From Buttiauxella agrestis ATCC 33320 (GTDB taxonomy: Bacteria > Pseudomonadota > Gammaproteobacteria > Enterobacterales > Enterobacteriaceae), in the NCBI RefSeq assembly GCF_000735355.1, contig NZ_JMPI01000047.1:1-62544 (forward strand): 62,544 nucleotides of DNA, read 5' to 3'. Positions 14,925 to 29,806 of this stretch are shown in pieces (within the stretch, counting starts at the first letter, position 1; every line of letters begins with the position of its first letter). The position numbers were made by a program, and so were the translations under genes. A model generated the notes under the pieces. That model saw only the letters and a list, made by a program, of their open reading frames with translations. It did not search any database and had not been told where the DNA came from.

Positions 14925-14952
14925 GTGCGGCGCAATGCCCGTTCTTCGGGCA

Positions 14953-15079
14953 TATACCCAAAATAATTCGAGTTGCATCGCGGCGGCAAGGGAACGAGCC
15001 CCAATGAGCTTACATCAGTAAGTGATTTGGGTGAGTGAACGCAGCCAACAAAGATGCAGCTTGAAGTATGAAGGGTATA
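14953..15079. repeat. ERIC element in the argW leader
   Basis: A complete 127-bp enterobacterial repetitive intergenic consensus runs from TATACCCAAAATAATTCG to GAAGGGTATA, with the central GAGCTTACATCAGTAAGTGA core. It ends 2 bp before the first base of argW. Confidence 0.93.
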
Positions 15080-15081
15080 GA

Positions 15082-15156
15082 GTCCTCTTAGTTAAATGGA
15101 TATAACAAGCCCCTCCTAAGGGCTAGTTGCAGGTTCGATTCCTGCAGGGGACACCA
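15082..15156 (+). tRNA. argW: tRNA-Arg (anticodon CCT), argW
   Basis: The 75-nt sequence folds as a tRNA: acceptor GTCCTCT pairs with AGGGGAC, anticodon loop holds CCT, T-arm is GGTTCGATTCC, and CCA is encoded. It reads the rare AGG codon. argW is a common integration site for phages and islands; here its 3' end is repeated at 23948. Confidence 0.97.
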
Positions 15157-15304
15157 TTTCTTAGTTACCCGACATTTCCCGCCGTAACCCAAACCCCGTA
15201 AAAACCAGCAGCAAAGCCAATCCTTTATTATTTGACGTTACCTGTTGTGAATGGACTACAACCCATCAACCCCCACGCATCTTTCCAATCAGCAATGCGT
15301 TTTA
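15131..15304. repeat. Island boundary repeat, copy A (argW 3' end plus flank)
   Basis: The 174 bp beginning in the argW T-arm recur at 23948-24120 with about ten differences (CCTGCAGGGGACACC versus CCTGTAGGGACACC, for example). The repeat covers the tRNA end, about 70 bp of spacer and the last 24-25 codons of the leftward gene at 15228-15686. Confidence 0.92.
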
Positions 15305-15686
15305 CTGAAATAGAATGATGCGTCGACTCATCATTTTGCGCACGGTGTCCACCGTGTTTCTCCAGATAAACCATATATGCCGTATAAATATCATTCCTGA
15401 TCCAGGATAGCGGCGTGACATAGAAAGTATTCGGTTCTCGACCAAGATCGATAAATACCCAAAACTCATTGTCATTTTTATCAAGGGTACACTGGGCAGC
15501 ATAGTTTGTTGAGGTTTGCCAGGTCCCTGACGTTTTCGCTCTGGTGGTAACTTTATACGTTTTACCGTTTGGGGCATCAAATGTGATGGATGACCTGTTG
15601 CCCTCTTTCTGGACGATGGCATTACTGGCACCAAGGCTCGTTAGTTTCTGCAATACCATTAACTGCCCTAATTCTGCTGTAGTCAT
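15228..15686 (-). CDS. Island-border protein, possible restriction-nuclease-like fold
   Basis: I do not recognise this 152-residue protein by name. It has no signal peptide or membrane segment. The pattern FDAPNGKTYKV...TSGTWQ, then FWVFIDLG, then NDIYTAYMVYLEKHGG and RIADWKDAWGLMG recalls small PD-(D/E)XK-like proteins found in defence regions. However, the usual E/Q-x-K position reads T-T-R, so catalysis is doubtful. It points toward argW and its 3' end lies in the boundary repeat; a truncated second copy of that 3' end stands at 24044-24120. It is 111 bp from the ankyrin gene stop, with its own upstream space. Confidence 0.65.
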   Translation of the reverse strand: MTTAELGQLMVLQKLTSLGASNAIVQKEGNRSSITFDAPNGKTYKVTTRAKTSGTWQTSTNYAAQCTLDKNDNEFWVFIDLGREPNTFYVTPLSWIRNDIYTAYMVYLEKHGGHRAQNDESTHHSISVKRIADWKDAWGLMGCSPFTTGNVK

Positions 15687-15797: not shown

Positions 15798-16760
15798 TCA
15801 TAAGGAACGTGGAGAAATCGACCAAACAGTTTGCAGCCAGGTTAACCGCTGTTGCAATTGTGGGATGAACTCATTAAGCCAAAACAGGGAAGCAACATAA
15901 CCCGAAGACCCGCCACCACGACTGAATCGCTCAACGTAAAAGTCGTTGCCGCCCACCCGATTGATTAACGACTTCCCCGTCAGTGACTGAAATGCTGCCG
16001 AAATAATATTCGCTATTTCATCTTTATCTTCAGGGATACTGACCTGACATAAAGCCTGTCGCATCTCCAGCCACAAGAACAAACTCCCTCTCAATCCCCA
16101 TTGCGTCGGAGCAGGATCAAATAAGTCGGATACAACGGCCCAATCACTTTCCAGATAGCTAATCTTTTTTGCCGCAACTTTATGTACCAGCGGGAAAAAT
16201 ATCAGCCTGAAAAAATCCGGTTCAATCTCAAACGTAAAACTACTAGAAACGGAAAAACGAACAGAATCGACAGTGGATATTACTTTCCCCGTCAACGCAA
16301 AAAAGAGGTGACTTAGTCTGGTATCCAGTTCGTTAAGGTCATCAGGACATTGCTCAACACCGCAAGCCGCAATCATTTTATCGACCAAAATTTGGTTGCC
16401 ATCATAATCAGTGAACAATTGCCGCTCAGTGGCAACCACCTTTCTGAGAATTTGCGCGATAGTCACTTTTTGCGGGAAAAGAAGATACTCCAGTTCAGGC
16501 CGTTTGTGCTTTTCAACCACGATGTCATAAGCAGTCTGCCGCTTAGCGTTCGTTGTTGCACTTGGGTCAGCGCCAATAGATAACAGTTCTCCAATAACCG
16601 ACAAATTCGCTCCATGCCATGCAGCCTGATGCAGCGGGGTATAACCTTTAGGTTCACTGGGGTGATTTACCAGATCAGGATAATCACGAAGAATAGGTAA
16701 AAGCGTATTCCATTCGCCCTGGAAGGCGAGTTTCAATACTTTATCGCTAACAGACATCAT
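15798..16760 (-). CDS. Ankyrin-repeat protein in the RM operon
   Basis: The 320-residue cytosolic protein begins with ankyrin-type repeats at about residues 5-95: GYTPLHQAAWHGA followed by GELLSIGADPSATTN is the clear repeat, flanked by degenerate ones. The remaining 220 residues have no motif I recognise. Ankyrin repeats usually mediate protein contacts. The start lies 11 bp after the stop of the DUF91-type gene, with a GAGAGG ribosome site, so it is the last gene of the hsdR-hsdM-hsdS operon. A role in modulating or adding to the restriction system is inference from position. Confidence 0.75.
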   Translation of the reverse strand: MMSVSDKVLKLAFQGEWNTLLPILRDYPDLVNHPSEPKGYTPLHQAAWHGANLSVIGELLSIGADPSATTNAKRQTAYDIVVEKHKRPELEYLLFPQKVTIAQILRKVVATERQLFTDYDGNQILVDKMIAACGVEQCPDDLNELDTRLSHLFFALTGKVISTVDSVRFSVSSSFTFEIEPDFFRLIFFPLVHKVAAKKISYLESDWAVVSDLFDPAPTQWGLRGSLFLWLEMRQALCQVSIPEDKDEIANIISAAFQSLTGKSLINRVGGNDFYVERFSRGGGSSGYVASLFWLNEFIPQLQQRLTWLQTVWSISPRSL

Positions 16761-16771
16761 TCCAGCCTCTC

Positions 16772-17878
16772 TTACTCTGCCCGTTCAGTACCCCAGCGTA
16801 AAAAAATACGCTTTAGCTTATCGACTGTGTGCCGCCATTTTGGTGTGGTCGGTTTGCAGACCGTATTCTGATTACCAAAGAAACCAATCTCATTGACCGC
16901 CTCCTGCTCGCTGCGCGTTTCCAGCCATTTCACAGGGACAAAATATTCTGATTTGTCGGGATCGTCGGCGTTGTTGCGATATCCGGCACCAAATTTCAGC
17001 ACATCCATCGCCAGCTTTTCACCGTCGTCAGTGTTGATGGTGAAGCTACTGGCAGGCTCAACAGCACTCTGCACTATGCCAACACCGACGTAACCCGTTG
17101 CCGGGATTTTTACCCAGACTCGATTGCCGGGCTGGAGTTGTTTTAAGGTCTGACTGTACCAGCTTCCGCCACCCGCACTGATAAACCCGTAGCGACGCGC
17201 TTCTTCCCAAACTCGACTTTGCGAGTCGCCAAACGAAACGTAGAACTCACCGTTCCAGGGTTCCTTCGCATTGGCATTTGTGGCAGTAGCCTGTGCGGCA
17301 TTAGTTTGTGTCTCGCTTGGGTCGAGAAGCCAGGCTCGGCTTAAGAACTGCTCGTCACCGTGCTGGAACACCTTGAAGAACAGTACGTTAATAGAGATTC
17401 CGTTCTTGCTGAGGTAATCGACAATGCGCTCGGTGGACGGATCCAGCTCGGCAGCCACAATGATGATTTGATGCGACTGGTTGATGGACTCTTCTTCCAG
17501 TTCAGTATTGAAACGTTGCCTAAACGCATCACCCAAATTGCCCCCACCGGAGAATTTCTCGTAAATCTGCGACAAACGATCGGCGGATAAATCATCCACC
17601 CAGGAGGCGTAATCCAGCGCCTGCGCGACCACTTCACGCGGTGTGCGGTCGCGTTTTAGCTCAATCAGGATCAGCGAGGCATCCGGCGCGATAGCCAATA
17701 GATCGATACGCCCTTTGTCGAGCGTATTTTCCTGATGCCCGATAATCATCCACTGATCGGAGAGGATAGTGGGGTCGTTTAAAATCATCCTCTCCAGCAG
17801 TTGCTCACTGGCAAGTTTGCTGATGGTCAGCGGCTGAGGGTTCTCCCCCACTCGCCAGATTGCATGATGAACCGGCAT
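16772..17878 (-). CDS. DUF91/NucS-like nuclease with C-terminal PUA-like region
   Basis: The 368-residue protein carries an N-terminal PD-(D/E)XK nuclease core: Asp59 in GRIDLLAI, Glu73-x-Lys75 in LIELKRD, and a QALDY helix (Gln86, Tyr90). This pattern is that of the NucS/DUF91 endonuclease domain. The C-terminal part (about 230-340, with GNRVWVKIPATGYVGVG) looks like a small beta-barrel of PUA/EVE type, a fold used in some systems to read modified bases. It starts 10 bp after hsdS and is followed 11 bp later by the ankyrin gene, so all are co-transcribed. Function in defence is inferred. Confidence 0.75.
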   Translation of the reverse strand: MPVHHAIWRVGENPQPLTISKLASEQLLERMILNDPTILSDQWMIIGHQENTLDKGRIDLLAIAPDASLILIELKRDRTPREVVAQALDYASWVDDLSADRLSQIYEKFSGGGNLGDAFRQRFNTELEEESINQSHQIIIVAAELDPSTERIVDYLSKNGISINVLFFKVFQHGDEQFLSRAWLLDPSETQTNAAQATATNANAKEPWNGEFYVSFGDSQSRVWEEARRYGFISAGGGSWYSQTLKQLQPGNRVWVKIPATGYVGVGIVQSAVEPASSFTINTDDGEKLAMDVLKFGAGYRNNADDPDKSEYFVPVKWLETRSEQEAVNEIGFFGNQNTVCKPTTPKWRHTVDKLKRIFLRWGTERAE

Positions 17879-17888
17879 CGTCTGTTCC

Positions 17889-19625
17889 TTAGTTTAATGC
17901 TGCGTCGGTGAGCGCATCCGCCAGGTGTAGTTGGGTTTGCTGGGCGGATTGCAGGCGGGATTTGAGAGAGTCACAAAGCACAAATAACTCATCGATTTTA
18001 GCTGCAATTTCAATTTGTTCTGCTAAAGGGGGAATAGGAATCAGTGTATTCGATACTTTAGACAAATTTAGATTCGGCTGGGCCCCGCCTGCGGCATGAC
18101 TTCTTAAATCGTCATACGATTTTTCAAAGAAAAGCTTGATATATCGACGATGGAATTCATTACTTTCAAATAATTGAATTGCTGCACAAGCTTGGTTTGT
18201 TCCAGCCGCGATACGTAATTCAGTTATCTGACCACGAGTTTTCCCCTGACCATACATAGCAATGATAAGGGTACCAGGTGGATAAATTGAAACATTTGTT
18301 TCCTTTACAGCCCTCATTGAGACCTTTTCAGCTGTATCGATAATAAATGGTGATGATGTTTCACCACTTGTAACCCAATTAAACTCTGGTTCAGACCAAT
18401 AATCAGGATTATCTCTTGAAGGAGTAGAGCCTGTCCCGACTTGAGCTATTGCCATTATTCGGCACCACTCCCACCCCACCGGCAATTCAAATGGTTTTTC
18501 ATCATCACTAATCGGCGGCAAAGGTTTTTGCTTTTTAATTTTACCTTCTTTTACCAGTCGCGATTTTTCTTGCTCGATACATTTAAGCAGTTCAGAGGCG
18601 GGTTCATCGTTCGGGTCTTGCGGTACCAGTTTGCCCATCACTGCCAGTTGCAGAATGGTTTGCTTAAGTGCGTCAATACTCGCTTCTGTGGCAAATAACG
18701 TGTCGAAATGCTGGCTGATTCGCGCCCAGTTTTTGGCAAGTACTTCGGCATTTTGGCTGTCGGTCAGCGTCGCCAGCAGGGTTTCCACCAGTTGCTGATG
18801 TGCATCCAGACTGGTTAGCGATTGCTGTTCCAGTTGGTCGCAGAGGGACATTAGTTCGTCAACTTTTTCAACGATCTGGTTCTGTTCATTACCCGATGGA
18901 AGGCCAATAACATAATTAAGAAGTTGTTCTTGTTTTATACCTTCAACTGTAGTTCCTGTCCCTTTTATTTTTACGGTTGAATATGTATTAAAGAAAAAAT
19001 CAAGAGAAACACCACTAGTCAGTTTTACCGACTTAAGATCTTGATTGAACGCTACAGGGCATGATGCTATTCCAATTTTACCCAACCCCATTCGAGTGCA
19101 GATTAAAATATCACCTTCATCAGCTAATTTACTTCCCGCATCCAAACCTTGATGGGAAATGTAATCCTGAGTTTTTGCAATATATTTCTCTTTGCCCAAG
19201 TCCTTTACGCTGGCCCAAGGGATATCTCCATTCCAAAAATCAGGATTAGACTTACTGGGAGTTCCTCCACTCGCTATCGAGTTAAATAACGCCCCTAGTC
19301 TTACCCACTCCCACCCCTCCGGCAGCTCAAACGGCCTCTCATCCTCACTAATTTCCGGCAGCGGCTTCTGCTTTTTAATTTTACCTTGCTTAACCAGCTC
19401 CGCTTTCTCGGCAGCAATTCGCTTTAGCAGCTCAGACGCCGGTTCATCATTCGGGTCCTGCGGCACCAGTTTGCCGCGCACCGCCAGTTCCAGAATCAGC
19501 TCGCGCAGCTTCTTAATGCCGTAGAGATCGATTTTACCGTTGCTGCCGCGCCCCGCGGTGGAGCGGGTTTGCAGCGCGGAGGACCAGATATCGATATGGT
19601 CGGTGACAAGCTTCTCAACGGTCAT
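17889..19625 (-). CDS. hsdS: Type I restriction specificity subunit HsdS
   Basis: The 578-residue protein has the two-fold structure of HsdS: two target-recognition domains separated by coiled-coil spacers. A conserved block (KLVPQDPNDEPASELL...KGKIKKQKPLP...ELP.GWEW) occurs twice, near residues 50-110 and 330-390, each preceding a variable recognition domain. This layout is that of type IB (EcoAI/EcoEI) subunits. The bipartite DNA target cannot be read from the sequence. The start overlaps the hsdM stop by one base (TGATG). Confidence 0.94.
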   Translation of the reverse strand: MTVEKLVTDHIDIWSSALQTRSTAGRGSNGKIDLYGIKKLRELILELAVRGKLVPQDPNDEPASELLKRIAAEKAELVKQGKIKKQKPLPEISEDERPFELPEGWEWVRLGALFNSIASGGTPSKSNPDFWNGDIPWASVKDLGKEKYIAKTQDYISHQGLDAGSKLADEGDILICTRMGLGKIGIASCPVAFNQDLKSVKLTSGVSLDFFFNTYSTVKIKGTGTTVEGIKQEQLLNYVIGLPSGNEQNQIVEKVDELMSLCDQLEQQSLTSLDAHQQLVETLLATLTDSQNAEVLAKNWARISQHFDTLFATEASIDALKQTILQLAVMGKLVPQDPNDEPASELLKCIEQEKSRLVKEGKIKKQKPLPPISDDEKPFELPVGWEWCRIMAIAQVGTGSTPSRDNPDYWSEPEFNWVTSGETSSPFIIDTAEKVSMRAVKETNVSIYPPGTLIIAMYGQGKTRGQITELRIAAGTNQACAAIQLFESNEFHRRYIKLFFEKSYDDLRSHAAGGAQPNLNLSKVSNTLIPIPPLAEQIEIAAKIDELFVLCDSLKSRLQSAQQTQLHLADALTDAALN

Positions 19626-21097
19626 CAGTTCGCCCCCTTGTTACCCGCCAGTGCGATACCGAGAATATCGCGTAGTTGGTTACGCAGCTCGCCGATTTCC
19701 GCCTGCTGCGTCTGGTACTGCGCCAGCAATTCGTCCGGGTCGTGGCTGATGGTTTCGCCCTGGTACGGGTTTTTGATGTCGAGGTTAAAGTTCCGGGCGA
19801 TGATGTCGTCGATGCTGACTTTCCACGCCTGGTTGTTCTCTTCGCGGCTGGCAAAGCCGTCGGCTTCACTGCCCCACCAGTCGATCTCGGTCTGGAACTC
19901 TTCAAACTTCATCGGTTTGGTTTTGCTGTAGTTCTTTACGCCATCCGGGTACGGATGTTCATAGAACCAAATATCCTGAGTTGGCTGGCCTTTGGTAAAG
20001 AACAGAATATTGGTTTTGATGCCGGTGTACGGGTTAAATACACCATTCGGCAACCGCACGATGGTGTGCAGGTTGCACTCTTCGGTCAGCAGTTTTTTGA
20101 TTTTGGTTTTAACGCCTTCACCAAACAGCGTGCCGTCTGGCAATACCACTGCCGCACGGCCTTTATCGGCCAGCACTTCAATAATCAGTTGCAGGAACAG
20201 GTCGGCGGTTTCGCGGGTCTGCATTTCTGCCGGGAAGTTTTTCTCGATGCCGTCTTCTTCGGTGCCGCCAAACGGTGGGTTGGTAACAATCACATCAAGC
20301 TGCTCATCCCAGGAAGAAAGCGGTTTGTTGAGTGTGTTGTCGTGGCGGATTTGTACCGGTACTTCAATGCCGTGCAGCAACATGTTGGTGGTACACAGCA
20401 GGTGCGGAAGCTGTTTTTTCTCGACGCCGAAAATCTGTTTTTGCAGTATCTGGTGGTCAGCGGTGGTTTTAACGTAGTGCTCTTTTACATGGTCGAATGA
20501 ACACGCCAGGAAACCGCCGGTACCGCAGGCCGGATCCATAATCGACTCACCCAGTTTCGGGTCGATGCGGTTGACCATAAAGCGCGTCACCGCACGCGGG
20601 GTATAGAACTCGCCCGCATTGCCCGCGTTTTGCAGGTCCCGCAGGATTTGTTCGTAAATGTCACCAAACAGATGGCGTTCGGAACTGCTGCTAAAGTCGA
20701 TTTCATTGAGCTTGTTGATCACCTGGCGCAACAGTGTGCCGTTTTTCATGTAGTTATAGGCATCGCTAAAGGCTTGCTTCACCACAAAACCGCGCGGGTT
20801 TTTATCGATGGGCGCAATCATGCTTTTCAGGGTCGGGAACAGGTCGTCATTCACAAACTCCAGCAGCTCGTCACCGGTAATTCCTTCGCTGTTCGCTGCC
20901 CAGGTGCGCCACAGATAACGTTTAGGGACTGGCAACTGGTAATCATCCTGCTCCAGTTCCAGCTCTTCTTCCTGAGTGTCAAAAATTTTCAGGAACAGCA
21001 GCCATGAAAGCTGGCCTAAGCGTTGGGCATCGCCGTCAACGCCTGCGTCTTTGCGCATGATGTCCTGAAGGGATTTTATGACTGAGCTAATTGACAT
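19625..21097 (-). CDS. hsdM: Type I DNA methyltransferase subunit HsdM
   Basis: The 490-residue N6-adenine methyltransferase has GEFYTPR at 162-168, the SAM-binding DPACGTGGF at 188-196 and the catalytic NPPF at 273-276. With HsdS it protects the host; with HsdR added it forms the nuclease. Length matches type IB HsdM (about 490). A GGAAAG ribosome site precedes the ATG; hsdR ends 72 bp upstream. Confidence 0.96.
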   Translation of the reverse strand: MSISSVIKSLQDIMRKDAGVDGDAQRLGQLSWLLFLKIFDTQEEELELEQDDYQLPVPKRYLWRTWAANSEGITGDELLEFVNDDLFPTLKSMIAPIDKNPRGFVVKQAFSDAYNYMKNGTLLRQVINKLNEIDFSSSSERHLFGDIYEQILRDLQNAGNAGEFYTPRAVTRFMVNRIDPKLGESIMDPACGTGGFLACSFDHVKEHYVKTTADHQILQKQIFGVEKKQLPHLLCTTNMLLHGIEVPVQIRHDNTLNKPLSSWDEQLDVIVTNPPFGGTEEDGIEKNFPAEMQTRETADLFLQLIIEVLADKGRAAVVLPDGTLFGEGVKTKIKKLLTEECNLHTIVRLPNGVFNPYTGIKTNILFFTKGQPTQDIWFYEHPYPDGVKNYSKTKPMKFEEFQTEIDWWGSEADGFASREENNQAWKVSIDDIIARNFNLDIKNPYQGETISHDPDELLAQYQTQQAEIGELRNQLRDILGIALAGNKGAN

Positions 21098-21169
21098 GTT
21101 TTCTTTCCGTTTTTAAAAATGATGCCACCGGGAGCCGTCAGCACCAGGTGGCAGAATAGTGGTTGGTTA

Positions 21170-23605
21170 TCAGGCGGAGCGTGACGGCAACTGGTAGATT
21201 TCGTTTTCCAGTTCGTTCACTGCCTCTTCGTAAGCCTGCTTGTTACCAAAGCTGCTTTTGATGATTTCCAGCGGGCGACCGAGCGAGTCAAACGGTTTCA
21301 GCTTCAATACCTGAATATCCTCGATTTCCTGCACGCCTTCGTCGGCGTATTTATCCAGAAGCGTGTTTAACACGTTCTGCGCAGGCTCGGAATATTTAGT
21401 GAAGTAGTTACGCTTGCGCACATTGTCGGCACGTTCCTGGCGCGTGAGCGGTGGCTGGCCGTATACCACGTGGCAAAGTAAATCGAACGGGTCGAGATCT
21501 TTGCCCACCTCTTCGGCTAACACATCCCAAAGCACCCCTAACTCTTGCAGTTCCTCAATGATAACCTGCTTGCGGGCGGCAGATTGCCATTTACGGGTGA
21601 AGTCATCAAGTGATGCGTAGTCTTTATCTTTTAGCAACGTTTTGCGGGTGTAATCCTGGAAGGATTCCGTGACCAGTTTGCCGTCGGCATCGTAATACTG
21701 AACGCGTTTCGCCAGCACTTTGACCGCAACGCCGTTAACGTGGAATTTGCGGATTTTGTTTTCGTCGTCTTCTTCGAAAGCGCCAGTTCCATCGCCTGAT
21801 GTCGGGTCATACGTTGCAGGTGTTTCTTCCATCCCAGTAAACACATCAGGCAATTCACTCTCTGGTGTGTCGTCCTCCAGTTGCTCGTCAAAATCAGAGT
21901 CCGGGTCGGTAATCTCTTCTGCCGTGGTACGAATCACTTTTTCCGGTACGCCATCAAAACGTTCATCGGCAAACAATTCGGTGGCTTTTTTGAAATCAAG
22001 AATGGTGAACCACAGCTTGCCGTGTTTTTCGTTGATACGCGTGCCACGCCCAATGATTTGCTTGAACTTGGTCATCGACTGAATGTTTTGATCCAGCACC
22101 ACCAGCTTGCAGGTTTGAGCATCCACGCCCGTGCTCATCAGTTCAGACGTGGTGGCAATGACCGGATAAGGCTTTTTAGGGTTGATGAAATTATCCAGTT
22201 GCCCTTTGCCAATTTCGTCATCGCCGGTGATTTTCATCACATACTTTTCATTCTTCTTCACTTGCTCCGGGTTCAGGTTAACCAGCGCCCGGCGCATTCT
22301 GTCGGCATGGTCGATGTCGTTACAAAAAACGATGGTTTTATCCATCGGGTTGGTGCGTTTCAAATAGTCGGTAATGGTTTGCGCCACCAGCATGGTGCGC
22401 TCATCAATCACCATGGTGCGGTCAAAATCTTTCTGGTTATAAATACGGTCTTCGATAAGCTCGCCGTGTTTATCGACCTGCCCTTTGGTCGGCCGCCAGC
22501 CTTGTAAATCGACGTCGATATCCACGCGCACCACTTTGTAAGGGGCGAGGAAGCCATCTTCGATGCCTTCTTTCAGGGAATAGGTATAAACCGGTTCACC
22601 AAAGTAGTCAGTGCTGGAGACTTCTTCGGTTTCTTTCGGCGTGGCGGTGAGGCCAATCTGGGTGGCACTGCTGAAGTATTCGAGGATTTCACGCCAGGCG
22701 CTGTCTTCCGACGCGCTGCCACGGTGGCATTCGTCGATAACAATCAGGTCAAAGAAATCGGGCGCGACTTGTTTAAAGGCTTTCTGATGTTCTTCCGGCC
22801 CGGTGATGGCCTGGTACAGCGCCAGCTGGATTTCATATGCCGGGTCGATGGTGCGCCCGGTGATTTTTGTCATCGCGCTGCCGAAAGGCTGGAAATCGTT
22901 AGTTTTAGTTTGATCAACCAGAATATTGCGGTCAGCGAGGAACAGAATCCGTTTCTTGTTTTTTGCTTTCCATAAACGCCAGATAATCTGGAAAGCGGTG
23001 TAGGTTTTCCCGGTTCCTGTCGCCATGACCAGTAATACACGTTTTTGCCCGGCAGATACGGCTTCTATCGTTTTATTGATTGCCTGTAACTGATAGTAAC
23101 GCGGGGATTTTCCTGAGTTGTCATCGTAGTAATCCTGGCTGATGACGGGCATTTGTTCGGTAGTAAAACCTTTCCAGGCGCAGTATTTATCCCAAAGCTT
23201 TTCAGGGCTTGGGAAATCTTCTAGCTTGATTTCAGATTCAAGCTGCACAGGGTTGGTTTTATCGTGAAAGATGAAGCCATCACCGTTGGAAGCAAAAACA
23301 AAAGGCACATCAAGCAAGCGCGCGTAATCAAGCCCTTGCTGCATCCCTTTGCCAATCTCATGCTTATTGGCTTTTGCTTCTATAACAGCAAGCGGTAACC
23401 CCGGTTTGTGGTAAAGCACAATATCGGCTGATTTCACTGTCAGGCGTGCCGCCAGTTTGCCGCGTACCACTACTTTGCCATCACGGAGTTTTACCTCCTG
23501 ACGGATCTGCGTCATCACGTTCCACCCCGCGTCTTTGATCGCAGGTAGGATGAACTTGGTGATGATATCCGTTTCAGTCAGATGCGTTTTGTTTACGCCA
23601 GCCAT
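21170..23605 (-). CDS. hsdR: Type I restriction endonuclease subunit HsdR
   Basis: The 811-residue motor-nuclease has an N-terminal PD-(D/E)XK domain (Asp61, Glu76-x-Lys78, then Gln90 and Tyr94), Walker A ATGTGKT at 195-201, DECH box at 291-294, and later helicase motifs including [12 protein letters not shown] and IGRGTR. It translocates and cuts unmodified DNA with HsdM and HsdS. The short length is that of the EcoAI/EcoEI (type IB) group, unlike the 1,000-plus residues of EcoKI or EcoR124I. It is the first gene of the leftward operon. Confidence 0.95.
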
Positions 23606-23947: not shown

Positions 23948-24120
23948 AGGTTCGATTCCTGTAGGGACACCATTTCTTAGTTACCCGACATTTCCCGCCG
24001 TAACCAAAACCCCATAAAAACTAGCAGCAAAGCCAATCCTTTATTACCTGACGTTACCTGTTGTGGATGGACTACAACCCATCAACCCCCACGCATCTTT
24101 CCAGTCAGCGATGCGTTTTA
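23948..24120. repeat. Island boundary repeat, copy B
   Basis: This is the second copy of 15131-15304: a degenerate argW 3' end (GGTTCGATTCCTGTAGGGACACCA), the same spacer and the same gene end. It marks the far side of the RM island, 8.8 kb from copy A. No full tRNA is present here because the 5' part is missing. Confidence 0.9.
24044..24120 (-). pseudogene. Truncated 3' end of a second border-gene copy
   Basis: Reading leftward, the segment encodes KRIADWKDAWGLMGCSPSTTGNVR and a stop, the C-terminus of the protein at 15228-15686 with two changes. The upstream part is gone and is replaced by transposase-like sequence. Confidence 0.8.
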
Positions 24121-24245
24121 TTCAATACGCGGATAAGCTAGAACGCTGGCGAATGGAATATAATCATGAAAGGACACATTCATCATTAAATAACATAATT
24201 CTGGCTGAATTTATCCGAAGCATCAGGAAAGGCGAACGTCTCTAG
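24121..24245 (+). pseudogene. C-terminal fragment of an IS3-family transposase
   Basis: The reading frame ERWRMEYNHERTHSSLNN...LAEFIRS matches the C-terminal end of IS3-family OrfB (IS407 group, W-x-x-x-YN-x-x-R-x-HSSL). The catalytic DDE core is absent. The frame continues artificially back into boundary repeat copy B, so an apparent 60-residue ORF from 24063 is a chimera. The next 120 bp, to the fimbrial gene stop, hold no gene. Confidence 0.75.
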
Positions 24246-24367: not shown

Positions 24368-25342
24368 TTACAGGTAATTAAAATGTAGCGTTGCAGCAAC
24401 ATTCACTTTCCCCGCTGAGGTGGTTGGGGCAATTTGAATATAATTGGCGTGTAATGGAATAAGCAACGTTCCAGTTTCCGCATTGTCCAACTCCCTGCCC
24501 ATAATCATAAAAGGAATATTAACGGGTATTATTCTCTTTTTGTACCAAAATTGAACACCGACCCCTCTGGCCGCATCATCAGACTTCTCAATATTTAAAA
24601 TCCCCGCTAATGAATTAAATGCATCACCGTTGAGGGTAAGTGATATTAAATGCGGCGTTGAATTGCATTCCAGAGATAATGGAATTAATGTCTGGTCATT
24701 TGGAAGTGATTTTTTAGCGCCAATGGAAGCCAGTTTTTTAGACGGAAGATGGACAATTAGCTGAGGCAGTTGAACATTACATACAGGAGCAGGGAGCGCT
24801 GTGGAGATATGCAGGTTAATGATATTATTCAGTTGTTTTGTGTGAAAACTTAAGAGTGCCTGTTGATGAAACTGCAATACCCCGTGTGCTTTGATTTCTC
24901 CCGCCGTTCTAACCAGCTCAATTTTCAATGTAATATCTTTCGTCTTAAGAGGCTGATTCTTGTAAACAGGCATTCCGTCATGAAATGGTAATTTTTTTAA
25001 CGAACGATAGCTGTCATGATAATTGACACCATAATAAATTCGAACCCCGACTCCATCGATTGCCGTAGGATAAACACCTCTTCCGCTTTCGCTACCCGTG
25101 AGCAACCCTGAGACCATCAATATGTCTGAGCTATCGGCACATGAAAGATCGCTATTATTATGTGTCAGTTCTGAAAGTTTTTTTGTTTCAGAATAAAGCA
25201 CTGAACCTGATTTTTGAGTGTTATTTAATCTCAGGGTGGCGTGTAACTGAACATCAAGGACATGGTTTTCATTATTACCCGCACAGGAAAACGCACGGGG
25301 GACGATAAAAAAACAAATCAGTAATGATAGAATTATTTTCAT
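24368..25342 (-). CDS. Fimbrial tip adhesin-like subunit
   Basis: The 324-residue secreted protein has a signal peptide ending near AFSC. The first half is an unassigned domain with two to three Cys; the second half (from about residue 185, PAPVCNVQL) resembles a pilin domain and ends with the alternating strand ATLHFNYL used for donor-strand exchange. Length and the place at the end of the operon suggest a two-domain adhesin. Its receptor is unknown. It starts 3 bp after the usher stop. Confidence 0.75.
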   Translation of the reverse strand: MKIILSLLICFFIVPRAFSCAGNNENHVLDVQLHATLRLNNTQKSGSVLYSETKKLSELTHNNSDLSCADSSDILMVSGLLTGSESGRGVYPTAIDGVGVRIYYGVNYHDSYRSLKKLPFHDGMPVYKNQPLKTKDITLKIELVRTAGEIKAHGVLQFHQQALLSFHTKQLNNIINLHISTALPAPVCNVQLPQLIVHLPSKKLASIGAKKSLPNDQTLIPLSLECNSTPHLISLTLNGDAFNSLAGILNIEKSDDAARGVGVQFWYKKRIIPVNIPFMIMGRELDNAETGTLLIPLHANYIQIAPTTSAGKVNVAATLHFNYL

Positions 25343-25345
25343 GAA

Positions 25346-27904
25346 TTAGTCGCAATTTAACGTAATAATATTAAAGTTACCTAAACGACTGGCATCAGCG
25401 ATATCATACTTTGCCAGGCAGGTTTTTCCATGGTCATAAGTAACAGACAACGTGCCTTTCTCTTTGACGCCGCTGATATAGACCTGACCTTTATCGCCAA
25501 CATAAAATACGCGCTGATTATCCTCAGCAGTACGGGCGACAGCCCCGAAGGGGATTTTCTCGCTGTGGTGAAGCAATGTCACCATCATATTTTCGCCAGG
25601 ATGTGTCTCAAAGGGTACTAATACGATAGCATCCCTTGTCGGAATGACGGATTTAGACATTGAACTGATATTATTAATTGCAGAACTTTGATTGGTATCG
25701 AAAGCCACATCATCTCTGCTGTAGACAGACATATCCGGTTTGATGGCATAGCCAAAATAATCGGTATGAAGTCCTGTTCCCCCTGCTATCTGCGCACCAC
25801 TCACTCCTGGCGTACTGATTAACGCCATCGCACCGGTAGAATACTGGCCCAAAGTGACTCCGCCGGAATGAACAATTAAGCCACCATTGACTGCCCAGGA
25901 TGCTTTATTCTGTGTTGTTTCGTGAGCATAACCTAAATCAGCTTCTCCCTGATTCCCTGTCCAGGCAACATTGACGCTACTCTGGCTATTTTCAGCCTGA
26001 CTATGATTAAAACTTTCCCCCGTCTGGAAAGAATAAGCTAACTGATCGTATTCAAGTGCTTCGCCCGACAACCCTGTCTGGAAAGAGGTATTTCCATGTA
26101 AATCGCTGGTTGCCATGTTGGTTATTGTCTGCGTGTGAGACGAAAATACCGATAAAGGTATTGATACCGAGAGAGCCACTTGTTTATCATTTTCAAAATC
26201 TGAGTCAGAGTCTTCATTTTTATTCGCGCTGAACGATAAAGAAACCTGAGCTTTGCTCACCGGGAAGTTTAAACCCGCCTGATAATTGTCTGACTCACTG
26301 CCATCGTAGTAAATATTTTTGTTAAGAGATAAATACAGACTCCACGAATCAATCAAAGCCTGATTCACAGAAAGGGTATATTCATATTTCTTCTGTTTAT
26401 TATTATTGTCAAGGGTCATCGCGTCTTCAAGCGTGGCATACTCTTTGGAAGCATACCTTGTACTGGTTTGGATATCTGTTTCAGTGGAGTCAATATGGCG
26501 GGAATAACTGATACGGATATTTTTTCCGGAATACGTACTATCATTATTTACTTTCTTCGCCCGGGATAAAGTGACATCTGTTGAAACAGCCCCCAGTATC
26601 CCGAGATCGGCGCCAATACCCATATTCTCAGCAAAAAAATGACTATCACTCATTTGCAGGCCATTCAGTAGAGTTAATCCCCAGGGTAAACCATATGAAA
26701 GGTTGTATTGTGCGATATTACTTTGCTGACTTTCGCTATGCCCCTCGAAGGGAGTGGAATTATCTGGATAGCGCCGTTCTGTATCTTCTTTCTCCGGCGT
26801 ACCGGTGGACTGTTTATCGTGATAGTGACCCACGGCAAATGCATATTTTAAAGCGCCTTCTCGTTGTAAATTCTGCATCGCGGAGTAGGTTTGCTGCAGG
26901 TGAGTCTCCTGACCGTTACTTTCTTTTATGGTGATATCCAGTTCCCCGCCGGAGGAGACGGGAGACAAATTATCAATAGTAAAGGGGCCGGGAGTGACAT
27001 TGATCTGTGTAAGCGTATTACCCTGTTCTTTCACTGTCACGGTGGCATTGCTTTTAGCAATGCCGTGGATAACGGGCGCGAAACCATTCTGACTTTCGGG
27101 GATCATGCCGGTATCCGTAACTAACTGAATCCCTTTTATTTTGATGCTGTCAAATGTATCCGCCGTTGTATAAGTATCCCCGGCGGAAAACTCACTTTTT
27201 AATGCCGGTACCGTTCGTTCAATATAGGTGCCAATATTGTCAAAATGTTGCTCATCGCCACTGCTTTTTTGCCAGGAAGATAAGCTTCGCAGCCTCCAGG
27301 CTCCCAGATTAATGCCTGAGACAAGGTTCAAATAGTTTTCCTGCGCGTCATTCCCGGATGACGATGCATCTGTTTTGGAACCAGAGTATTGATATTCAAC
27401 TAACAATGCCGGAATCCCTTCATCCCACTCTGAGGGCAATATGTCATCTTCATTTTTTCTTAACATAAAAGCCTGCGGGAATGTGATATCAAGAGCCATC
27501 TGATTCGGATTCAGACGTGATGTCGATTCCGGCGCAGCTTGTTGAATAAAGACACATTCATCAGCTTTACTCCCGGAGAACCTGTAACGCAATGCAGAAA
27601 TATCCACTCCCAAAGCAACATAGTCACTTTTAGTCAAGCAGGGCTGGAGTGCCGAGTTTTTATCTTTCTTTAATAATATCGGCATCAGTCTGTAGCTTTT
27701 ATCACCATTGATAAAAACATGTAAATGGCTGACGCCTTCTTTTAACATTGTGGACTGTATTTCTTCGGTGCTTGTTATATCAGGAGCGTCATCGAAAGAG
27801 TGTAATAACGCCGGGTCATAATAATTATTTGCGTACGCAAGTTGACAGCTTACTGACAGGATAAGGGGGACCGGAATACAACGCGTTAATCGTGCAAGTG
27901 ACAT
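25346..27904 (-). CDS. Fimbrial outer-membrane usher
   Basis: The 852-residue usher has a signal peptide ending at AYAN, an N-terminal chaperone-binding domain, a long beta-barrel with a plug segment (IERTVPALKSEFSAGDTYTTAD, split by the conserved SEFSAGD) and C-terminal domains ending in two cysteines. The N-terminus (YYDPALLHSF) departs from the common FN-x-x-FL start of FimD/PapC ushers, so this is not a close type 1 fimbria. It is 14 bp from the chaperone gene. Confidence 0.9.
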   Translation of the reverse strand: MSLARLTRCIPVPLILSVSCQLAYANNYYDPALLHSFDDAPDITSTEEIQSTMLKEGVSHLHVFINGDKSYRLMPILLKKDKNSALQPCLTKSDYVALGVDISALRYRFSGSKADECVFIQQAAPESTSRLNPNQMALDITFPQAFMLRKNEDDILPSEWDEGIPALLVEYQYSGSKTDASSSGNDAQENYLNLVSGINLGAWRLRSLSSWQKSSGDEQHFDNIGTYIERTVPALKSEFSAGDTYTTADTFDSIKIKGIQLVTDTGMIPESQNGFAPVIHGIAKSNATVTVKEQGNTLTQINVTPGPFTIDNLSPVSSGGELDITIKESNGQETHLQQTYSAMQNLQREGALKYAFAVGHYHDKQSTGTPEKEDTERRYPDNSTPFEGHSESQQSNIAQYNLSYGLPWGLTLLNGLQMSDSHFFAENMGIGADLGILGAVSTDVTLSRAKKVNNDSTYSGKNIRISYSRHIDSTETDIQTSTRYASKEYATLEDAMTLDNNNKQKKYEYTLSVNQALIDSWSLYLSLNKNIYYDGSESDNYQAGLNFPVSKAQVSLSFSANKNEDSDSDFENDKQVALSVSIPLSVFSSHTQTITNMATSDLHGNTSFQTGLSGEALEYDQLAYSFQTGESFNHSQAENSQSSVNVAWTGNQGEADLGYAHETTQNKASWAVNGGLIVHSGGVTLGQYSTGAMALISTPGVSGAQIAGGTGLHTDYFGYAIKPDMSVYSRDDVAFDTNQSSAINNISSMSKSVIPTRDAIVLVPFETHPGENMMVTLLHHSEKIPFGAVARTAEDNQRVFYVGDKGQVYISGVKEKGTLSVTYDHGKTCLAKYDIADASRLGNFNIITLNCD

Positions 27905-27918
27905 AAAAGTTAAGCCAC

Positions 27919-28635
27919 CTAGTGTATTACTGTTGAGTAAGACTGCGACGGAATACTGTAATCATTGATACCACTCCATGTTACTGCAATGGTATCCGTA
28001 TTTTGTGCAGCAAGGCTAAATACTTTTCGTCCAAAAGGGGGCACTACTGTGTTATTTGTTTCAATAGAGACCACTGTTTCTTTATTATTTAATATGAGCC
28101 TGTTCATAACTACATAAAACGGTGTGTTGTTAACTGCTGCCACTGATTGTTTACCATCTCTTTTCCATATCAGACTTTTAATTGCCGCGACAGAAGTTCC
28201 CTGCAACCCCGCAGGGCGGTAGAAGACTTTAATTCTGTTACTGACGGCTAACAGCATTTTGTTATTCAATTCCTTTTCATTTTCTGAAACGGCTGGCACG
28301 GTTTTGATGTTTAACCATAAAAGACTTTCTCTGTCTTTCGGCAGACCTGCACCAAAATAAACCAGCTGGATGAGGTTTTCGGAATTTGGCTCCATCTGGA
28401 ATAAAGCGGGTGCAATCATAAATGGAATTTTTATACCGCTAAGTAAGGGATTACCTTTAGTATCCAGCCACGTCTGAACTAAAAATGCCCGCGTATCATC
28501 ATTTTTCAAAGATAATGTGGTATCTGATTTATCACCTTCATAGACCAGACGATTAGAGCCGAGTTTTAAACTAGCGTTCACTGATAATGAACAGAGTGAA
28601 AAAAGAATTAATAGCGTAGTGATTATTTTATTCAT
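27919..28635 (-). CDS. Periplasmic fimbrial chaperone
   Basis: The 238-residue PapD-like chaperone has a signal peptide (to about SVNA), the first-domain strand TRAFLVQTW, the conserved IKVFYRPAGL at the domain junction and an N-terminal RLVYEGDKSD segment. It folds subunits by donor-strand complementation. I chose the ATG at 28635, which gives a clean signal peptide; a GTG 7 codons upstream is possible. No strong ribosome site is seen for either. Confidence 0.9.
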   Translation of the reverse strand: MNKIITTLLILFSLCSLSVNASLKLGSNRLVYEGDKSDTTLSLKNDDTRAFLVQTWLDTKGNPLLSGIKIPFMIAPALFQMEPNSENLIQLVYFGAGLPKDRESLLWLNIKTVPAVSENEKELNNKMLLAVSNRIKVFYRPAGLQGTSVAAIKSLIWKRDGKQSVAAVNNTPFYVVMNRLILNNKETVVSIETNNTVVPPFGRKVFSLAAQNTDTIAVTWSGINDYSIPSQSYSTVIH

Positions 28636-28689
28636 GAGGGGCTCAGCAAAAAACACAGCCCCGATCAGAACTGTGTTATTAATATTAAA

Positions 28690-29220
28690 TTAAAGGTAAT
28701 TAATGTGGATCTGTGCAGTCGCTTTGATTTTGCCTGGCTCGGCAGTACTGTTGGTTTCTTTAACAGGATTTATCTGGAATTCGAAGTTGTGTTGACTTTC
28801 TGTTCCACCTGTTTGCGTCGCTGTGCCGGTATTAGGCGCAACTATTGCGTTGTTTTGCGCGCTGATGAATGCAATGCCAACATGTTTTGCGTAGCCGTCA
28901 CCCTGGGTAATACCCAGCAGTTCGGGATCGTTGGCATCAGCCGTACCGATTATTGAAGCGCTAACTGTGCCTGGCGAACACTCGGTGGCATTGATTACCA
29001 ACAGTGTCGCATTCGAATCTGCACCTTTGCTTTTAACGTAAGCAGCGTCATGCATTTTATCGAATGAAACTGCATTGATAACAACTTCTTGAGACAGTGC
29101 CATCTGACAGGAGTTTTGCGTAATTTTACCAGTTGCTTCAAATGGAAGGTTACTCGGGTCTGCCGCGTGAGTAATTGGTGATAATAATACCAGCAGAGTT
29201 AACAGTGATATTTTTTTCAT
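28690..29220 (-). CDS. Fimbrial subunit, second pilin
   Basis: The 176-residue pilin has a signal peptide (MKKISLLTLLVLLSPITHA), a Cys pair near residues 38 and 81, and the C-terminal beta-zipper AQIHINYL. The start was set at the ATG at 29220, since the upstream in-frame codons would spoil the signal peptide. It stands 22 bp after the first pilin and 54 bp before the chaperone. Confidence 0.87.
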   Translation of the reverse strand: MKKISLLTLLVLLSPITHAADPSNLPFEATGKITQNSCQMALSQEVVINAVSFDKMHDAAYVKSKGADSNATLLVINATECSPGTVSASIIGTADANDPELLGITQGDGYAKHVGIAFISAQNNAIVAPNTGTATQTGGTESQHNFEFQINPVKETNSTAEPGKIKATAQIHINYL

Positions 29221-29242
29221 TTTATAATTATCCTTAATTAAT

Positions 29243-29806
29243 TCAGAGGTAAACGATTTGAATTTGTCCATTAATACGAACATCACCCGCACCCGGCGCG
29301 TCGGTGGTTTTTACCAGTCCAGGCCATGCCTGAACGTTGAATGTACCATCTGTTTTGGCGGTATATGCTGAACTTGGTGTGCCTGGGGTAAGCTTGACTG
29401 CACTGGCACCATTCCCTAAAAACATCAGCAAACCGACATGTGTTGCAGGTGAGTTTGTGGAACCATTGGCAAGTGCATTGGCATCATCAGCATCTGCGGT
29501 ACCTAGTAATGTCACGGTAAATTGCTGTTCTGCCGCGCAGTCAGACAAATCCAGCGTGGGCATCTGACCGGAGGGAGTAATCATATTTGTTGAATTTGCC
29601 GCGGTGCTGATTTCCAGTTTTGAAATATCAGTATCAGCAAAGGAGATCGAAGTCGGGAAGCTTACTGTGCAGCCGCCCCCGGTGACTTCTCCTTCAATAT
29701 TTATGGTTTCCGTCAGACCATCAGCACCAAAAGCAATGGAGGATAATCCAGCTGAGACTAATAAAAGGCTTAACGCTAATGCCTTTCTAGTTTTATTTTT
29801 ATTCAT
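29243..29806 (-). CDS. Fimbrial major subunit (first pilin)
   Basis: The 187-residue pilin starts with a basic n-region and a signal peptide ending near SIAFGA. It has two cysteines that can form the pilin disulfide (GGGCTVSF and LSDCAAEQ) and the terminal strand GQIQIVYL. As first gene of the operon it is probably the main shaft subunit. An AAGGA site lies 8 bp before the ATG. Confidence 0.88.
   Translation of the reverse strand: MNKNKTRKALALSLLLVSAGLSSIAFGADGLTETINIEGEVTGGGCTVSFPTSISFADTDISKLEISTAANSTNMITPSGQMPTLDLSDCAAEQQFTVTLLGTADADDANALANGSTNSPATHVGLLMFLGNGASAVKLTPGTPSSAYTAKTDGTFNVQAWPGLVKTTDAPGAGDVRINGQIQIVYL

Follow-up and report, generated by a model that had tools for sequence, protein, structure and literature searches.

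Second defence genes have been described both beside and within type I restriction operons. In the immigration control region, a type I system stands beside a modification-dependent type IV nuclease (PMC12707154), and in the RptR-RMS-DarTG2 island of enteropathogenic E. coli a toxin-antitoxin module is inserted between hsdS and hsdR (PMC12255303). Proteins with the base-reading EVE, ASCH and DCD domains of the PUA superfamily occur near type I systems, DCD also in fusion with PD-(D/E)XK nucleases (PMC7641849, in the main text of which 'DUF91' and 'NucS' are absent). The present analysis concerns a gene, here called N, in a type I operon of Buttiauxella agrestis ATCC 33320, contained in a 62,544-nucleotide stretch of contig NZ_JMPI01000047.1 (the window). 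Like RptR-RMS-DarTG2, this operon embeds a second defence module; here, however, it is a nuclease of a family other than that in the immigration control region, inside the hsd operon and 10 bp behind hsdS. The best explanation, to which a probability of about 0.5 is assigned, is that N is a type IV-like modification-dependent nuclease and the last conserved gene behind a type IB system, the two genes that follow it, A (ankyrin protein) and X, being optional cargo.

The gene itself is not new, as N matches the candidate defence family PDC-S11 of PADLOC nearly end to end (residues 1–359 of 368, profile positions 1–354 of 358). Guilt by embedding is the approach by which PDC genes were put forward as candidates (PMC10855318, PMC12988326). 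In a panel of P. aeruginosa, PDC-S11 was present in 10 strains, of which 90% were phage-resistant, a correlation (PMC10855318), while in Streptococcus suis it co-occurs with other systems, only another pair being consistently co-localised (PMC12813430). The accessible parts of PMC10855318 and PMC12988326 give no mechanism or domain reading for PDC-S11, and a literature search without bioRxiv and most subscription journals found neither this operon nor any NucS-EVE protein described (apparent matches to 'DUF91' in two papers were discarded, being actually DUF916 and DUF913). The setting, predicted folds and selection of the gene are described here.

Nuclease N and its predicted domains

The hsd genes upstream of N (Table 1) form what is, by profile matches, an intact-looking operon of the EcoAI family, which we take to be type IB. 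HsdR is full-length (NF046051, 1190 bits against a cut-off of 550, profile positions 1–768 of 768), HsdM is complete by Pfam and PADLOC profiles, and HsdS is complete, with two domains in Pfam and the PADLOC Specificity_I profile spanning residues 1–578; hsdM and the two-domain hsdS thus share an operon with an EcoAI-type hsdR. The gap between hsdR and hsdM is 72 bp, hsdM and hsdS overlap by 1 base, and 10 bp and 11 bp separate hsdS from N and N from A, with plausible ribosome sites (AAGGA before N, AGAGG before A) recognised by eye; hsd, N and A are probably read as a single transcript. A promoter scan performed at chance (9 found, 10.9 expected) and a terminator scan returned 18 against 10.9 expected; no conclusion was drawn from either. 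Rechecking of gene coordinates and junctions upheld the initial annotation of five minus-strand genes with spacings of -1, 10 and 11, though it had overlooked the sixth gene, X, and the borders of the island described below.

N carries a NucS/EndoMS-type PD-(D/E)XK nuclease core, as indicated by a profile match to NucS, a fold match, and the aligned Asp, Glu-x-Lys and Gln of the NucS pattern, and would presumably cleave DNA. The residues earlier proposed as catalytic (Asp59, Glu73-x-Lys75 and Gln86) are, together with Tyr90, conserved without exception in all 27 sequences of the alignment, comprising the N of the window and 26 picked from the 80 loci introduced below. In NucS the nuclease is C-terminal; N differs in beginning with it and, as its core starts near residue 22, has no room for the N-terminal DNA-binding domain of NucS (29.7 bits against NF003270, cut-off 216). 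NucS C-terminal regions joined to other domains have already been reported (PMC5290159).

The C-terminal domain of N has an EVE/PUA/YTH-like predicted fold, the highest-ranking fold matches, after NucS itself, being EVE proteins, including VcaM4I, and then YTH domains. The PUA/EVE-like end assigned from the letters alone is supported by structure prediction, in a model of moderate confidence, but not by sequence searches, in which the domain alone gave a best PDB match of E 0.8 and no Pfam family. VcaM4I, a modification-dependent endonuclease with the EVE domain first and an HNH nuclease behind it, shows the EVE domain holding a flipped modified cytosine (PMC7897488), with Trp82 and Tyr130 as base-pocket residues; the predicted N shares the reader fold but has the nuclease first and a PD-(D/E)XK core. 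A NucS-type core joined to an EVE/PUA reader would give PDC-S11 a concrete hypothesis that a single mutant and a handful of substrates could test.

Linkage of N to type I operons

The linkage between N and hsd genes was explored in a sample of 295 genomes of the family, in which N was matched at a threshold of E 0.001. Matches occurred in 29 genomes, 11 at ≥90% identity (one truncated) and 18 far weaker, and an hsdM of ≥83% identity in 15. Both were present in nine genomes (hypergeometric P = 6e-12, with genomes treated as independent, which is not quite so), and in all nine N stands directly behind hsdS, at 10 bp in eight and 156 bp in one; 2 of the 11 genomes with a close N are without such an hsdM. 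The wider sample consisted of 80 loci, the best 80 of 129 confirmed relatives, and hsd genes were counted for the 68 loci with at least 6 kb upstream (12 with less were dropped), using stop-to-stop frames because a basic gene-calling routine had picked shadow frames at GC-rich loci. All of hsdR, hsdM and hsdS lie upstream on the same strand in 44 of the 68, and in none of the 80 is any kind of hsd gene found exclusively downstream or on the opposite strand. For the enterobacterial loci having hsdS (n = 19, sorted by record title), the gap to N is 10 bp in 16.

Substitutions were compared with three relatives (L125, L126 and L139; hsdS in two of these) as the ratio of nonsynonymous to synonymous rates (dN/dS). 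N is under purifying selection and as constrained as hsdR and hsdM (dN/dS, 0.040–0.047 for N, 0.046–0.052 for hsdR and 0.024–0.043 for hsdM; 0.29–0.35 for hsdS). Overall, N, with its likely reader domain for modified bases, is a recurrent component of the 3' ends of type I operons, and the linkage is real, in agreement with the earlier proposal that a second nuclease is tied to the operon.

Several explanations could account for this linkage. Under the preferred one, HsdMS would mark host DNA with N6-methyladenine (m6A) and HsdR would cut unmarked DNA, while phages escaping by means of hypermodified bases would be met by N, the EVE/PUA domain of which would flip out and hold the modified base, most likely a modified cytosine, with the NucS-like core cutting near it. 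Co-transcription and mobility of the island would keep both arms together, and the slot behind N would be exchangeable, with A and X as its optional cargo. The listing of N by PADLOC as a defence candidate, the strong matches of five of ten neighbour proteins to defence families (below) and the described occurrence of EVE-domain proteins alongside type I systems (PMC7641849) also favour this reading. If N does read modified DNA, phage DNA would be blocked in both its unmodified and its hypermodified form by one co-inherited operon, which would close a classic escape route from type I restriction. A more far-reaching version, in which N works as part of the type I machine itself, with HsdR triggered by unmodified sites and N by hypermodified DNA, possibly recruited by HsdMS and kept in its place behind hsdS across Pseudomonadota and possibly further afield, seems quite unlikely. 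The preferred scheme is least secure on two points, the C-terminal domain's substrate and the dependence of N on the hsd proteins.

A number of observations weigh against a modification-dependent nuclease tied to the type I system. The model of N is of moderate quality (predicted local distance difference test [pLDDT], 71.6; predicted template modelling score [pTM], 0.49), the EVE assignment rests on it, and no sequence search backs that assignment. Foldseek by itself gave YTH domains an E of 0.005 at best and placed no EVE protein below 0.05, and the YTH readers, which recognise m6A, score almost as high as EVE; an m6A reader in N would conflict with host methylation. In 6 of the 15 family genomes with this hsdM there is no N behind hsdS. 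Among the 68 loci, 20 are without upstream hsd genes, including broken or partial copies of N (L059, L097), and 4 have only part of the set (L100 and L103 by weak hsdM matches), so that occurrence in settings without hsd genes, which had been named in advance as a sign against the composite unit, is partly seen. Linked loci are mostly from Pseudomonadota by title, the few others being the metagenome bins L069 and L113 and the doubtfully titled L041. N is rare in E. coli (8 of 5,426 genomes), in which 955 genomes match part of the island DNA, by the hsd genes among the matches listed (n = 20). Locus L041 is titled Chryseobacterium but has enterobacterial genes, and its title is probably wrong.

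A tree of N, built with a quick method from 67 loci and the window (the short row L087 omitted, four partial loci unlabelled), requires 12 changes of the hsd link, at least seven of them on supported branches, compared to a mean of 17.3 for shuffled labels; counts as low were obtained in 1 of 500 shuffles for linked rows and 3 of 500 for solo rows. The link is clustered, yet has been gained or lost repeatedly. These switches, along with the copies lacking hsd genes, are what would be expected if N were a mobile gene with a defence or repair role of its own, for which type I operons are just a landing place, and unrelated defence genes are indeed inserted beside hsdS in other loci. Ten hand-picked neighbour proteins were scanned against PADLOC and five strongly matched known or candidate defence families, with PtuA-like (L047), Old/GajA-like (L064), Drt1a (L120) and PDC-M56A (L078) proteins between hsdS and N and RT_UG5-nitrilase (L044) behind N. 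In L055, which has no hsd genes, N is followed by an HNH protein, and a second HNH protein lies between hsdR and hsdM in L070; the neighbour in L090 had one weak match, and those in L069 and L114 had no PADLOC match, that of L069 having a Schlafen AlbA_2 domain in Pfam. The order in E. coli NN5 (L140, 11120–16961) is hsdS, AAA ATPase, N and HNH gene, and the genes on either side of N may resemble a Septu-like pair. The number of switches is nonetheless below that of shuffled labels, and both the orientation and the place of N are constant, so a purely independent mobile gene is considered possible but unlikely. Elsewhere, N was found on plasmids (43 records, all <60% identity, haloarchaea included) and in eight loci on IMG/VR contigs, three of which have an integrase-like neighbour (labelled by eye), but in none of 50,697 phage records at E 1e-5.

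The same constancy could instead mark N as an accessory of the type I complex that binds or follows HsdR2M2S and processes sites of translocation or collision, with a NucS-like preference for irregular DNA. The place behind hsdS, the recurrent 10-bp spacing and a constraint equal to that on hsdR and hsdM would all fit. The 20 loci without upstream hsd genes and the 12 link changes on the tree do not, nor does the open N frame in two E. coli strains in which hsdS is broken by insertions, and such an accessory is judged unlikely. N might otherwise be a conditional toxin, a restrained nuclease lethal to its own cell once restriction is inhibited or breaks down. Activity against phage has been described for a toxin-antitoxin module inside a type I system (PMC12255303), and type I systems with EVE/ASCH proteins have been suggested to be toxin-antitoxin-like (PMC7641849); as N has copies without hsd genes and no constant partner to serve as antitoxin (A occurs in 5 of 80 loci), this appears very improbable.

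Ankyrin protein, gene X and the tRNA-Arg island

Protein A has a short ankyrin-like region at its N-terminus, with repeat-like similarity over residues ~7–86; only a single repeat passes the Pfam cut-off, and the remaining ~230 residues are without a family match. A structure model of A, based on six close sequences, was unusable (pLDDT, 40.9). A was found in five of the 80 N loci (L041, L042, L043, L046 and L060) and, since 10 loci have <1.3 kb behind N, 65 of the 70 with enough DNA lack it; the search for the five-gene set in other genomes thus did not return nuclease and ankyrin gene as a standing pair. In L043 (a contig also seen as L127) stops interrupt A, whereas N remains open. The 295 family genomes hold eight matches to A, of which three are close and intact (the window's included), one is broken, and four, at 35–37% identity, have neither hsd genes nor N in the stretch around them. 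A profile of the close copies matched three of 274 genomes in the class, one being that of the window and the other two marginal. On plasmids, eight records contain relatives of A, one full-length at 48% identity and seven covering only residues ~189–313; the surroundings of the partial relatives were mixed (four of seven inspected), and no function could be derived from these relatives. The profiles of N and A are unrelated.

Six genes fill the 8.8-kb island at the tRNA-Arg gene (Table 1), the sixth being X, for which no match was found in Pfam, PADLOC, NCBIfam or PHROGs and the best relative of solved structure is at E 0.38. X is present in 6 of 80 N loci and 6 of 295 family genomes, elsewhere beside A, N or a shortened hsdR, and had two weak matches in the plasmid collection, the better at 41% identity in Vibrio campbellii. 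In L173, X stands beside a shortened hsdR, adjoining a yfdC-like gene, a relic at the tRNA-Arg site.

Table 1. Features of the tRNA-Arg island in the window, from left border to right border
Feature	Coordinates	Strand	Details
tRNA-Arg (CCT), island insertion site	15082-15156	+	
attL-like repeat	15131-15309		covers tRNA 3' end and end of X; 167/179 aligned columns equal to 23948-24125
X, 152 aa	15228-15686	-	without family match; begins 111 bp after A
A, ankyrin protein, 320 aa	15798-16760	-	PF00023, 25.1 bits
N, nuclease, 368 aa	16772-17878	-	PADLOC candidate family PDC-S11 (PDLC04916, E 5e-165)
EVE/PUA/YTH-like domain, N residues 205-368	16775-17266	-	predicted fold
NucS/EndoMS-type PD-(D/E)XK core, N residues 22-168	17375-17815	-	Asp59, Glu73, Lys75, Gln86
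hsdS, specificity subunit, 578 aa	17889-19625	-	PF01420, 116 bits; 2 Methylase_S stretches
hsdM, type I N6-adenine methyltransferase, 490 aa	19625-21097	-	PF02384, 327 bits; PF12161, 46 bits
hsdR, EcoAI/FtnUII-family type I restriction subunit, 811 aa	21170-23605	-	NF046051
attR-like repeat, closes island	23948-24125		repeats tRNA 3' end

The genes of the island differ in selection and in history. Across the three comparisons the dN/dS of A (0.135–0.275) is three- to sixfold that of N, and that of X is 0.195–0.41. Synonymous divergence (dS) from L125 is 0.06 for A and 0.04 for X compared to 0.60 for N, 0.43 for hsdM and 0.28 for hsdR, with four-fold sites identical at 131 of 140 in A but at 110 of 157 in N, and from L126 it is 0.19 and 0.17 compared to 0.87, 1.0 and 1.36; against L139 there is hardly any contrast (A, 0.83; X, 0.70; N, 0.99; hsdM, 0.76; hsdR, 0.84). 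Because dS is far lower in A than in N in two of three comparisons, A, with X, and N differ in their exchange history. Along the island, identity with L125 is 93–100% over X and A and 82–93% in N, shifting near the 3' end of N, and the contrast between A-X and N recurs in four of five whole-island comparisons but not in L127. A agrees with hsdM and hsdR in L060, where N and hsdS are the outliers. A-X and N have different histories, and the moved segment may be either.

The initial annotation had cast A as a partner or restraint of N in a composite unit. All close copies of A (≥80%) for which upstream DNA was seen do stand directly behind N, including in E. coli with a broken hsdS, and A also follows N on a viral-labelled contig. 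With A missing from 65 of 70 loci, broken in one, less constrained and of separate exchange history, a working pair of N and A within the operon is very improbable. A looks like optional cargo that prefers the slot behind N and is no necessary partner, a neighbour probably not needed.

The tRNA-Arg gene is the insertion site of the island. The repeats at its two borders are accompanied by a match of 24047–24139, overlapping the right-hand repeat, to the end of X, and by eye no additional gene-sized frame fit for an integrase was seen between the borders. The site was compared with seven stretches from other genomes of the genus, five of which (L158–L161 and L163) lose homology with the window at 15157–15160, directly past the tRNA gene. 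In L157 homology extends to 15230, across sequence shared with the second repeat, and in L162, at a contig end, it stops at 15158 and is followed by short pieces of N and hsdR; the pieces in L162 are relics at the tRNA-Arg site. In E. coli MIN9 (L138) and D53-1 (L139), X, A, N and the hsd genes are found at a tRNA-Arg gene adjoining yfdC, in islands that also carry an integrase and a DUF927 gene and in which hsdS is split by inserts that contain insertion sequence (IS) elements and genes for glycan synthesis, N and A remaining open. The N-A pair was detected by DNA match in three further E. coli genomes. The whole unit is best read as a mobile tRNA-Arg island with a type IB operon.

Around the borders, a stretch of ~127 bp before the tRNA-Arg gene (~14952–15079), presumably an ERIC-like repeat, has many copies across genomes of the genus. 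A short frame on the forward strand (24063–24245) overlaps the right-hand repeat and reads like the end of a transposase, which we assume to be of IS3 type. Directly past the right border of the island, frames at 24368–29806 resemble, by eye, a fimbrial gene cluster.

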